Source: Laribacter sp.
Lineage (GTDB): Bacteria; Pseudomonadota; Gammaproteobacteria; Burkholderiales; Aquaspirillaceae
Direction of reading: 5' to 3'
DNA length: 37,047 nt
Assembly: GCA_018055005.1 (NCBI GenBank)
Contig: JAGPIM010000005.1
Location: 1-37,047 of the forward strand
Shown here: positions 2,950 to 34,088 of the stretch, piece after piece
Numbering within the stretch: position 1 is the first letter of the stretch
Layout of the letters: each line of letters begins with the position of its first letter
Program-made: the position numbers and the translations under genes
Notes under the pieces: model-generated
Database searches by the model: none
The model's input: the letters and a program-made list of their open reading frames with translations, nothing else
What the model was told of the DNA's origin: nothing

Positions 2950-4362
2950 TCAGCGGCTCAGCGCACGGGCCGTTGCCAGCCGTGCCTGCCAGGCGGCGGC
3001 CCGGGCACTGGTTTCGCTCTGGCGGGCGGCCAGCAGTTCGGCTTCGGCGGCCAGCGCGGTTTCACGCGAGCCGATGCCGGCCCCGGCCCGTTCGCCGGCC
3101 AGCCGCAGGGCCAGCCCGGCCTCGGCTCGCGCCGCCGACGCGGCCTGCTGCACGGTCTGGCTGGCCTCGACCGCTGCATAACCGTCTGCCGCCTCGCGCG
3201 CTGCCGTGATCAGGCTGGCGGTGTAGCTGGCATTGGCCGCATCGAATTCGGCCGAGGCGGCGGCCAGCCCGGCGCGGCGGCGGCCGCCGTCAAACAGCGG
3301 CAGGTCGATCACCGGTGCCAGCCCGAACATGCGGCTGGCGCGGGTCAGTAGATCCCCCGTGCCCTGCGCTGACAGGCCGGCAAATGCCGACAGCGAAATG
3401 CTGGGATAAAACGCTGCCCGGGCGGCATGGATGTCCTCGGCGGCAGCGGTAATGGCCAGTCGCGCGGCCTCGACGTCCGGCCGTGCCGCCAGGGCGGCCA
3501 GCGTGGGTTCGGACGGCAGGACCAGGGTGGCGGGATCCGGCAGGCGGGCCGGCGTGAACCGGCGCGTGGCCTCCGGCCCCTGCCCGGTCAGCTGTGCCAG
3601 CGCGTGCCGGTTGAGTGCCACCTGTTGCCCGGCTGTCGCCAGCGCTCCGCGCTGCTGTTCGGTGGCGGCCCGCAGGACGGCCAGCGCACTGCGCGGGGCC
3701 AGTCCGGCGGACACCCGCTGCTGCAACAGCGACTGGCGGGCTTCGAACGTGGCCAGTCCGCGGGCCAGCAGCTCCTGCCGTTCGACCGATTCGGCCAGCG
3801 CCACGTACTGCATGGCCACGGCGTAAGCCAGCAGGCGCCGTACGTCGCGTTCGCGGGCAGCAGCCACGGCTACGCCGGCTTCGGCCGAACGCACCTGCGC
3901 GGCCATCTGTCCCCAGAAATCAAAGAGATAACTGAATGTCACCTCGGGCTGGTACAGCGTGTACCACTGGCCGCCGATCGGTGGCGGATAGAGGCCGTTG
4001 GCCGATTCGCGCAGCCTTTGTACCGTCAGCTGGGCATCCAGCTGCGGCAGGCGCAGTGAGCGGGCCTGCAACAGGGTCGCCCCGGCGGCGCGCACCCGGG
4101 CCGCGGCTGTCGCCAGGTCCGGGCTGTCGCTGAGTGCGCGCCGCACCAGTCCGGCCAGTCCGGGCGAGCCGAGGGCTTGCCAGGCGTCATCGGCCACCGG
4201 GCGGGCGGCGGTGGCCGATGACGCCGGCACCAGCGCCAGTGCGGCCGGATCGGGAGTACGGGTTTGCGGTTCGATACCGTGGGTGGACGCGCACCCCGCC
4301 AGCAGGGCAGAGGCGGCGACAAGCCACAGAGGGCAGGAAAGCGGGAATTTCATACGGTTCAT
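2950..4362 (-). CDS. Outer-membrane efflux lipoprotein, NodT/OprM-like (OMF)
   Basis: TolC-like outer-membrane channel subunit (470 aa) of the tripartite pump. A lipoprotein signal peptide is visible at the N-terminus, ending in the lipobox LLAGC, so Cys24 would be acylated. Two OEP repeats follow; the arrangement and length match NodT-family lipoproteins. The start codon sits only 3 nt beyond the stop codon of the HD-GYP gene and I see no Shine-Dalgarno sequence before it (the preceding bases are GCGCTGAAAA), which suggests translational coupling to the upstream gene. A second in-frame ATG at 4353 is a possible alternative start. EmrAB pumps often use such an OMF encoded in the same operon. 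Confidence 0.93.
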   Translation of the reverse strand: MNRMKFPLSCPLWLVAASALLAGCASTHGIEPQTRTPDPAALALVPASSATAARPVADDAWQALGSPGLAGLVRRALSDSPDLATAAARVRAAGATLLQARSLRLPQLDAQLTVQRLRESANGLYPPPIGGQWYTLYQPEVTFSYLFDFWGQMAAQVRSAEAGVAVAAARERDVRRLLAYAVAMQYVALAESVERQELLARGLATFEARQSLLQQRVSAGLAPRSALAVLRAATEQQRGALATAGQQVALNRHALAQLTGQGPEATRRFTPARLPDPATLVLPSEPTLAALAARPDVEAARLAITAAAEDIHAARAAFYPSISLSAFAGLSAQGTGDLLTRASRMFGLAPVIDLPLFDGGRRRAGLAAASAEFDAANASYTASLITAAREAADGYAAVEASQTVQQAASAARAEAGLALRLAGERAGAGIGSRETALAAEAELLAARQSETSARAAAWQARLATARALSR

Positions 4363-23615: not shown

Positions 23616-23685
23616 CTGCTGAACGGCTCCGGCACAAGTTGCACGGACCGTGCAGCCTGCAAAAGCGGCAGCGACCGGCCAAGAA

Positions 23686-23728
23686 CGACAACGCCGCACG
23701 TCCCGGACAGGGAAATGCGGCGTTGTCG
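23686..23728. repeat. 13-bp inverted repeat between amt and the Rossmann-fold gene
   Basis: CGACAACGCCGCA (23686-23698) pairs perfectly with TGCGGCGTTGTCG (23716-23728). The 17-nt loop contains a second small stem (TCCC 23701-23704 with GGGA 23710-23713). No long T-run follows on either strand. It may act as a bidirectional terminator for the two convergent genes or be part of a structured RNA. Confidence 0.6.
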
Positions 23729-23794
23729 TGTGTGCAGCACCGGTCATGACACCGGCCGGAGTGCTGCGCCGGCGAGCATTCCCGGCAGGCAGGA

Positions 23795-31359: not shown

Positions 31360-32685
31360 ATGAGTTTTGTACAGCAACTGGGGCTGATCCTGCTGCTGAT
31401 CGCCGCCAGCATGTTCTTCTCCATTTCGGAAATCGCCCTGGCCGCCGCCCGCAAGATGCGCCTGCGCCAGTGGGCTGACGAAGGCCATGTCAACGCCCGG
31501 CGGGTACTGGACTTGCAGGCCGAGCCGGGACATTTTTTCACTGTGGTGCAGATCGGCGTCAACGCCGTGGCCATCCTCGGCGGCATTGTCGGCGAGTCGG
31601 CCTTTACTCCGTATTATTCCGGCCTGATCGGGCTGGTCTACACCGGCCCGGAGCTGGCCACCATCAGCTTTGTCTGTTCGTTCGTCACCGTGACCGCGCT
31701 GTTCATCCTGATCGCTGACCTTGTACCCAAGCGGCTGGGGCTGCTGTTTCCGGAAGCGATTGCCGTGCGGGTGGTCCGGCCGATGCGGGTGTGCGTGACG
31801 CTGTGCCGGCCACTGGTATGGTTTTTCAGCGGGCTGGCCGACGCGATCTTCCGCCTGCTGAAGATTCCTACACAGCATGAAGACGCCATCACGTCCGAAG
31901 ACATCGCGGCCGTGGTGGCAGCCGGTGCCGAAGCCGGCGTGCTGGCCGCCGGCGAGCACCAGCTGATCGAGAACGTGTTCGAACTGGAAAGCCGCACGGT
32001 GGCTTCGTCAATGACCGTGCGCGAAAGCATTGTCTGGCTGCCGCTGAATGCCGACAGCGAACAGGTACGGCAGACGGTGGCCGCCAACGCCCACAGCAAG
32101 TATCTGGTCAGCGACGGTGAAATCGACCGGGTGGTCGGCTATGTCGACAGCAAGGACCTGCTGGTGCGCATGCTCAACAGCCAGTCGATTTCGCTCAAGA
32201 CCGAGCCGATGCTGCGGCAGGTGCTGCTGATTCCGGACACGCTGACGCTGTCGGAAATCCTCGCCCGTTTCAAGAGCGCCCGCGAGGATTTCGCCGTCAT
32301 CCTCAACGAGTACGCACGGGTGGTGGGCGTGATCACCCTCAACGACGTGATGAGCACGGTGATGGGCGACCTGATCAGTGCCGGCGAGGAAGAACAGATC
32401 GTGCAGCGCGACGAGCACTCGTGGCTGGTGGACGGCGTGACACCGATCGACGACGTGATGCGGGCGCTGGCCATCGACCAGTTCCCGGACGACGAGCATT
32501 ACGAAACCATCGCTGGCTTCATGATGTACATGCTGCGCAAGATTCCCAAGCGCACCGATTGTGTCAGGTTTGCCGGCTACAGCTTTGAAGTGGTCGACAT
32601 CGACAGCCACCGTATCGACCAGCTACTGGTGACGCGCCAGCCTGACGCCAACGCCATCGAAACGGAGTCCGGTCCTACTGCATGA
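31360..32685 (+). CDS. CNNM/CorC-type membrane protein (hemolysin family, DUF21-CBS-CorC)
   Basis: Inner-membrane protein of 441 aa. A DUF21/CNNM transmembrane domain (about residues 1-185; LGLILLLIAASMFFSISEIALAAARK) is followed by two CBS domains (about 200-340; SMTVRESIVWLPLN and FAVILNEYARVVGVITLND) and a C-terminal CorC_HlyC FAD-binding-like domain. Such proteins (YtfL/PaeA type) are linked to magnesium or polyamine efflux; the name hemolysin is historical. The ATG at 31360 fits the first helix. Its stop codon overlaps the start of the next gene in an ATGA arrangement (32682-32685), so membrane protein and pseudo-receiver are translationally coupled. Confidence 0.93.
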   Translation: MSFVQQLGLILLLIAASMFFSISEIALAAARKMRLRQWADEGHVNARRVLDLQAEPGHFFTVVQIGVNAVAILGGIVGESAFTPYYSGLIGLVYTGPELATISFVCSFVTVTALFILIADLVPKRLGLLFPEAIAVRVVRPMRVCVTLCRPLVWFFSGLADAIFRLLKIPTQHEDAITSEDIAAVVAAGAEAGVLAAGEHQLIENVFELESRTVASSMTVRESIVWLPLNADSEQVRQTVAANAHSKYLVSDGEIDRVVGYVDSKDLLVRMLNSQSISLKTEPMLRQVLLIPDTLTLSEILARFKSAREDFAVILNEYARVVGVITLNDVMSTVMGDLISAGEEEQIVQRDEHSWLVDGVTPIDDVMRALAIDQFPDDEHYETIAGFMMYMLRKIPKRTDCVRFAGYSFEVVDIDSHRIDQLLVTRQPDANAIETESGPTA

Positions 32686-33365
32686 AACAGCGCCTCGCTT
32701 CCTGCCGCATCCTTCTGGTGGACCGCCGGGCCTCGTCCCGCGCCGGGCTGACAGGCATCCTGACCCGGCTGGGAATTCCGGCGGCTCATCTGCTGCATGC
32801 GGAACATGGCCGCAGTGCCCTGCAACTGCTGGCAGAGCAGCCGGTTGACCTCGTCATCAGCGCCATCGATTTTGCCCCGCCCAACGGACTGGCCCTGCTG
32901 GAGCAGATCCGTCATGGTCTCTGCGCAGCACCGGCCAACCTGCCGTTTGTCTTTGTCACGGCCGACGGTTCGCCGGAACACCGGCTGCTGGCGGCCCGGC
33001 TGGGCGTTGACGGCATCATCAGCAAACCGCCTCATCCGGTGCATGTCGAGCGCAGCGTGATCCGGCTTCTGGCCACCCGGCGGGCAGCACAGCCGGCCTG
33101 TTGCCAGCTGGTCAGGCTGCCAGACGAACTGCCAGCCGGGCTCTCGCTCACCCGGCCGGTACTGGCCATGACGCCAGGTCAGCTACTGACGGCTGACCTG
33201 CGCAGCCATTCGGGTACCCTGCTGCTGCCGCGCGGCAGCATCCTCACCTCCGCCGTGATCAGCGTACTGTTGCAGTATCGCCGGCACTTCGGCGCGGAAA
33301 CCATGACCGTGTTACGCGCCACACATGCTGAAACACCGTCACCCGTACCTTCCGGCATGCCGTAG
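32682..33365 (+). CDS. Degenerate (pseudo-)receiver domain protein
   Basis: A 227-aa protein with an N-terminal CheY-like receiver (residues about 8-125) and a short C-terminal domain with L-TADL-S-SGTLLLPRGSIL character, a motif also found next to HD-GYP domains. It has no DNA-binding domain. It aligns without gaps to the protein encoded at 33423-34088. Asp14 is retained, but the second acidic residue is Arg15 and the phosphoacceptor position is Ala61 (VISAID instead of VCDVE). Thr93 and Lys115 are kept. Phosphorylation at the usual site is therefore impossible. Start fixed by the ATGA overlap with the upstream gene. Confidence 0.85.
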   Translation: MKQRLASCRILLVDRRASSRAGLTGILTRLGIPAAHLLHAEHGRSALQLLAEQPVDLVISAIDFAPPNGLALLEQIRHGLCAAPANLPFVFVTADGSPEHRLLAARLGVDGIISKPPHPVHVERSVIRLLATRRAAQPACCQLVRLPDELPAGLSLTRPVLAMTPGQLLTADLRSHSGTLLLPRGSILTSAVISVLLQYRRHFGAETMTVLRATHAETPSPVPSGMP

Positions 33366-33368
33366 CAT

Positions 33369-33420
33369 CATGGCTCCGGTCATCACATATGCTGAATGCC
33401 ATGTGATGACCGGAGCCATG
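33369..33420 (+). repeat. Perfect 20-bp inverted repeat filling the gap between receiver genes
   Basis: The left arm (33369-33388) CATGGCTCCGGTCATCACAT is the exact reverse complement of the right arm (33401-33420), with a 12-nt loop. It begins 4 nt after the stop codon of the pseudo-receiver and ends 2 nt before the ATG of the next gene. The right arm contains CCGGAG, the probable ribosome-binding site of that gene, so the RNA hairpin would mask it. Confidence 0.95.
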
Positions 33421-33422
33421 TC

Positions 33423-34088
33423 ATGTCCATCCCGCTGGCGCAAGCGCGCATCCTGATCGTCGATGACCTGCTTCTGGTCCGGACCCTGCTGGCACGGGTG
33501 CTGACCGGCATGGGCACCCAGCCTGAACGTCTGTTGCAGGCCACGGATGGCAACAGCGCCATCCGGGTGATTCATGAGCATTACATTGATGCCATCGTCT
33601 GCGATGTGGAGATGACGCCGATGAACGGGCTGGAGCTGCTGGCACACATCCGTGCCGGGCAAACGGCCACCCGCCCCAACATTCCGTTTGTCTTTCTCAG
33701 TTGCCATGATGACCCGCTGCACCGGCTGGCGGCCGAAGCCCTGCTCGCGGACGGTTTTTTGGCCAAACCGCTGCGGCCAGCGGACATCGAGGCAATGGTG
33801 TGGCGCCTGCTGAGCCACAAGCGGCCACGCAGCAATCCGCTGCACTACATGGCCCCGACATTCATGTCGCCCCCCGTGCCTGCCGGCCGATTGCCACCGG
33901 GAAAACGCACCCGTGTCGGCCGGCTGCACACCGGTGACCTGCTGACGCAGGACCTGGTTACAGCGGACGGCCGCCTGCTGCTGGCAGCCGGCCACCGGCT
34001 GACGCGGGCAATGATCACGGCCCTGCAGCATCATCACGCCCACTACGGCCTGTACTGGCTGGACGTGCAGCCGCAGGCAACCGGCTGA
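33423..34088 (+). CDS. Single-receiver response regulator with short C-terminal domain
   Basis: A 221-aa paralogue of the preceding protein. The receiver is canonical: acidic pair Asp14-Asp15 (LIVDDL), phosphoacceptor Asp61 (VCDVEM), switch Ser93 and Lys115 (AKPL). The C-terminal domain (LLTQDLVTADGRLLLAAGHRL) resembles the segment often joined to HD-GYP or HDOD outputs but carries no such domain, and there is no DNA-binding domain. It may act by protein-protein contact. An in-frame ATG at 33396 lies in the hairpin loop; the ATG at 33423 is preferred because CCGGAG (33410-33415) is correctly spaced and the residues match the paralogue start. No partner kinase is in the window. Confidence 0.88.
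   Translation: MSIPLAQARILIVDDLLLVRTLLARVLTGMGTQPERLLQATDGNSAIRVIHEHYIDAIVCDVEMTPMNGLELLAHIRAGQTATRPNIPFVFLSCHDDPLHRLAAEALLADGFLAKPLRPADIEAMVWRLLSHKRPRSNPLHYMAPTFMSPPVPAGRLPPGKRTRVGRLHTGDLLTQDLVTADGRLLLAAGHRLTRAMITALQHHHAHYGLYWLDVQPQATG

Follow-up and report, generated by a model that had tools for sequence, protein, structure and literature searches.

Organization of the rec1-rec2 locus

The analyzed window, a stretch of 37,047 nucleotides from Laribacter sp., contains two adjacent receiver genes on the forward strand, designated rec1 and rec2. The open reading frame of rec1 (32682-33365) encodes a degenerate receiver with a C-terminal domain (Pfam Response_reg, 8.7e-12), and that of rec2 (33423-34088) a canonical receiver with the same C-terminal domain (Pfam Response_reg, 5e-19). 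The start residue of rec2 is shared by its homologues. The comparison was based on the host genome (2.76 Mb, 87% complete) and the genome of one congener. In the alignment, the phospho-acceptor Asp of rec1 is replaced by Ala (CD to SA), and the acidic pair lacks one Asp as well, both changes being found in the two species. The phospho-acceptor and the acidic pair are retained in rec2. With an identity of 34-37% the two genes are paralogues, which agrees with the original prediction of a pseudo-receiver followed by a canonical receiver.

The ATG of rec1 overlaps the stop codon of the upstream gene (ATGA), which presumably encodes a CNNM/CorC-type membrane protein. The genes 3′ of rec2 are located on the opposite strand, and rec2 is the last gene of its series; by inspection, we take these neighbors to resemble cpoB, pal and tolB. 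Because of the ATGA overlap and the terminal position of rec2, the CNNM gene, rec1 and rec2 are likely co-transcribed.

For the receiver part of rec2, a dN/dS of 0.04 relative to the congener was determined, indicating strong purifying selection. Therefore, rec2 must be made despite the structure upstream of its start codon described below. The dN/dS of rec1 was about 0.25, showing that rec1 is constrained as well, more weakly than the rec2 receiver. The C-terminal domain of rec2 (33801-34088) has a high dN/dS of 0.69 compared to 0.04 in the receiver domain.

A tract strongly diverged from the congener was found at positions 32641-33110. The receiver half of rec1 differs at 27% of the positions (dS 0.80) and the 41 nt preceding it at 56%, whereas the flanking coding segments on either side are diverged by 2-9%. 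This pattern suggests that the tract was replaced by recombination or that the degenerate receiver is diverging fast.

Structure and conservation of the intergenic hairpin

The gap between the TAG of rec1 (33363-33365) and the ATG of rec2 (33423) is 57 nt long and is filled by a hairpin on the forward strand. The left arm (33369-33388) begins with the fourth nucleotide after the rec1 stop codon, from which it is separated by the 3 nt CAT. It is followed by a loop of 12 nt (33389-33400, ATGCTGAATGCC), identical in the congener, and by the right arm (33401-33420), which is the reverse complement of the left arm with 100% complementarity across 20 nt. Between the right arm and the rec2 start codon lie 2 nt (TC). 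The right arm includes the motif CCGGAG (33410-33415), of which GGAG (33412-33415), 7 nt upstream of the ATG, is the probable Shine-Dalgarno sequence of rec2 as judged from the sequence. Within the loop, an in-frame TGA at 33393 is followed by an in-frame ATG at 33396 without a Shine-Dalgarno sequence, and these frame features are present in both species. All of these dimensions had been predicted exactly: the perfect 20-bp arms, the 12-nt loop and the 57-nt gap, the left arm starting 4 nt after the rec1 stop codon, and CCGGAG in a right arm ending 2 nt before the ATG.

Folding of the RNA from 33340 to 33450, proposed along with the original prediction, resulted in a strong hairpin with an energy of -53.1 kcal/mol compared to -34.8 kcal/mol for shuffled sequences (z = -5.2), and none of 200 shuffles reached an equal value. 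For a window of such composition (66% G+C), the expected number of perfect 20-bp repeats with a loop of 3-30 nt is 6.6e-6. The hairpin background consisted of the window and a 400-kb sample of the congener (437 kb in all). The hairpin is the longest perfect short-loop repeat of the window, and the longest perfect short-loop arm in the 400 kb of the congener was 17 bp, which is shorter than the 20 bp found here. It was also the sole strong repeat in the 437 kb with GGAG in its 3′ arm directly before a convincing ORF start. The other long hairpins of the genus, in the window and the 400 kb of the congener, were mostly terminators of the AAAA...TTTT form with a U-tract. The rec1-rec2 hairpin is thus real and non-random.

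The hairpin is present in the one congener compared and occurs as a single copy in both the host genome and the congener. An assembly artefact was ruled out by this independent genome, which bears the hairpin with substitutions. Of the 57 gap positions, 54 are kept. Two substitutions are located in the stem, G-C to A.C at 33379 and G-C to G.U at 33416, and the congener stem is less stable (-41.9 kcal/mol). Arm covariation across relatives, suggested as a check of the pairing, was not supported, with no compensatory change among these two substitutions and a comparison of two sequences only, since no rec1-hairpin-rec2 arrangement was seen in the loci read upstream beyond the genus. The divergence of the gap was 5.3%, which is comparable to or somewhat lower than the local dS of 0.09-0.21; with just 57 sites, structural selection cannot be shown from these values.

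Among 369 genomes from the class, no full-length match to the hairpin was found and two weak partial matches were obtained. A scan of genome contigs for the arm pattern detected single arms only, in three unrelated genomes, which approximates chance expectation. A protein search of genome contigs found no relative, and a plasmid search gave no match. Outside the genus, relatives of rec2 were found mainly in a second family of the order, where homologues in 11 genomes showed 37-46% identity. An equivalent of the rec1-hairpin-rec2 arrangement was not seen in those of their loci that were read upstream in detail; part of the other-family rec2 loci are reverse-oriented and lay outside this reading. 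The pair is carried by two species only, and the searches yielded no pre-duplication relative.

Two further inverted repeats were observed in the window. A perfect 17-bp repeat at 4183-4225 lies within a coding sequence on the minus strand (2950-4362), the product of which is a probable efflux outer-membrane lipoprotein. Both arms have changed in a compensatory manner (A-T to G-C), so that the repeat is perfect in the congener also, while its loop and flanks diverge. Such a double change is what template-switch correction, or selection for pairing, would give. The second repeat (23685-23729) looks non-coding and has 20-nt arms matching at 90%. The congener has the same outer 14-bp arms, although the sequence 5′ of the repeat can hardly be aligned. 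A terminator-like element lacking a U-tract is the probable interpretation.

Predicted masking of the rec2 ribosome binding site

In the folding model, the unpaired probability of GGAG is approximately 0 in both species. The predicted cost of opening the rec2 initiation region in free RNA is 27.2 kcal/mol, and 16.7 kcal/mol in the congener. Since a hairpin of 52 nt sits in a gap of 57 nt, the Shine-Dalgarno sequence is necessarily part of the right arm. Its position is forced by the size of the hairpin, and masking is therefore no independent evidence.

For the terminating ribosome, a footprint model was used in which a ribosome on the rec1 stop codon occupies the RNA as far as +15 from the P site, this length being an assumption. 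The modelled ribosome frees about 7 of the 20 pairs, a 13-bp stem persists and the GG of GGAG is still paired. The residual opening cost amounts to 20.9 kcal/mol (11.5 kcal/mol in the congener). A ribosome terminating on rec1 had been proposed to cover and melt the left arm. The model is in line with a loosened stem base, but with about 7 of the 20 pairs freed, coverage of the whole left arm is too strong a picture. To open the stem beyond its base, a post-termination ribosome that scans or unwinds would be required. From this anatomy, independent initiation on rec2 is predicted to be strongly repressed, and coupling would be partial at best. The proposed coupling switch, by which rec2 would be made only while rec1 is translated, is plausible and finds partial support in the models: masking of the Shine-Dalgarno sequence is predicted in both species, but the opening is incomplete and no covariation accompanies it.

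Translational coupling by RNA unfolding has been reviewed for several systems, including the MS2 coat and lysis genes, E. coli rpmI-rplT and genes VII and IX of phage f1 (PMC12548453). The rec1-rec2 locus resembles these systems in the predicted burial of the downstream ribosome binding site and in the co-directional upstream neighbor. Its stop-start spacing of +57 nt is similar to the +52 nt of the coupled pair rpmI-rplT (PMC12548453). In contrast to RNA-unfolding coupling, the pairing partner of the rec2 site lies wholly past the upstream stop codon, outside rec1, and a terminating ribosome would therefore open the stem base only. In addition, the rec1-rec2 stem is perfect and very stable, and coupling is a prediction here. 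In phage f1 the coupling is lost with a stop codon well upstream of the hairpin, and coupling correlates negatively with structure immediately 3′ of the upstream gene's stop codon (PMC12548453). Whether coupling acts by RNA unfolding or by ribosome scanning is not firmly established (PMC12548453). The anatomy and the predicted effect are the same as for intercistronic hairpins that sequester a Shine-Dalgarno sequence and lower the expression of a downstream operon gene; the rec1-rec2 stem differs from these in being a perfect 20-bp stem which occupies the whole gap.

The explanation we favor, to which we give about an even chance of being correct, is a cis-acting RNA hairpin that sequesters the Shine-Dalgarno sequence and keeps the translation of rec2 low and partly coupled to that of rec1. 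The hairpin in the CNNM-rec1-rec2 transcript would bury the rec2 Shine-Dalgarno sequence and independent initiation would be very low. The output of rec2 would likewise be low and would arise mostly during rec1 translation, when ribosomes finishing rec1 would hold the stem base open and scanning or unwinding post-termination ribosomes would open the remaining stem. Both the low expression of rec2 and its dependence on rec1 translation are inferred here. Against this explanation stand the opening of only about 7 of the 20 pairs, the uncompensated stem changes, a divergence not clearly below dS, the occurrence in two species only and the two published observations given above, on phage f1 and on structure past the upstream stop codon. 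At present, the locus can be regarded as a well-formed instance of a regulatory layout that is already known. The hairpin is conserved within the genus and well placed, and it is most simply read as operon control of a known kind, in unusually clean form.

If coupling holds, the dose of the live receiver would be tied to that of its dead paralogue. The locus would also serve as a clean test case from nature for the extent to which downstream structure is opened by a terminating ribosome, because the stem is perfect, very stable and starts three nucleotides past the stop codon.

Origin and alternative functions

The left arm is probably a derived reverse-complement copy of the rec2 ribosome binding region that arose by template switching, since the right arm must hold a working ribosome binding site. 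As in hairpins generated by template switching (PMC8794818), the rec1-rec2 hairpin is a perfect reverse-complement copy at a short distance. It differs from them in that the event cannot be reconstructed, as no pre-duplication relative was found. The hairpin could be a largely neutral by-product of such an inverted duplication, tolerated as rec2 is needed only at a low level and decaying by point mutation in the congener, an explanation we consider unlikely. Perfect arms are a signature of template switching (PMC8794818), the in-gene repeat at 4183-4225 has kept its perfect pairing in the congener through changes on both arms of the kind that template-switch correction would yield, and both stem changes of the rec1-rec2 hairpin are uncompensated. 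However, the hairpin has persisted across the species split with 3 of 57 positions changed and should strongly reduce rec2 translation, which makes a wholly neutral effect unlikely.

An element of RNA processing or stability is also an unlikely explanation. RNase III would cut the duplex, or the duplex would shield the 3′ end of rec1, and the mRNA levels of rec1 and rec2 would differ. Long stems of this type are typical RNase III substrates, and the structure is a long perfect duplex without a U-tract between the genes of an apparent operon. However, none of the results obtained here indicates cleavage, the stem of the congener contains an internal mismatch, and cleavage within the right arm would strip off part of the ribosome binding site.

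A more specific form of coupling would be a stoichiometry switch in which translation of the phosphorylation-dead receiver licenses its phosphorylatable paralogue, the intergenic hairpin being opened after termination and not by elongation. We regard this as quite improbable.

A transcription terminator or attenuator of a non-canonical type, lacking a U-tract, between rec1 and rec2 is very unlikely. It would account for a strong hairpin directly past a stop codon, but rec2 starts 2 nt further on and no promoter-like site of its own was found in the scan, and the other strong repeats of the genus have A/T-rich flanks. An intrinsic terminator was rejected, since no U-tract follows either arm on either strand and the terminator scan gave no match at the site. 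Least probable of all is a DNA-level element (the operator of a dimeric protein, a recombination site or a small mobile repeat), which would fit the perfect symmetry but not the single copy in the host genome and the congener, the absence of a convincing copy in the 369 class genomes (neither partial match covering the whole hairpin), the chance-like single arms in three unrelated genomes or the 20-bp arms with a spacing of 12, which are long for an operator.

Several further candidates were tried and rejected. Dispersed or mobile repeats (REP, MITE) were dismissed on the basis of the single copy in the genome. For an RNA thermometer, no modelled melting occurred between 4 and 70 °C and the unpaired probability of the Shine-Dalgarno sequence stayed below 0.01 up to 70 °C. 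Matches to Rfam families were all below the gathering score and mostly to eukaryotic microRNA models. The genes rec1 and rec2 are in the same frame, yet the TGA in the loop provides a second in-frame stop codon in both species, which excludes simple readthrough. A bypass like that of T4 gene 60 does not fit either: CCG is the last sense codon of rec1, and the gap contains a CCG at 33410 that is not in the frame of rec2. Initiation at the loop ATG, which is in frame in both species and has no Shine-Dalgarno sequence, was rejected as well, and the homologues favor the start at 33423.
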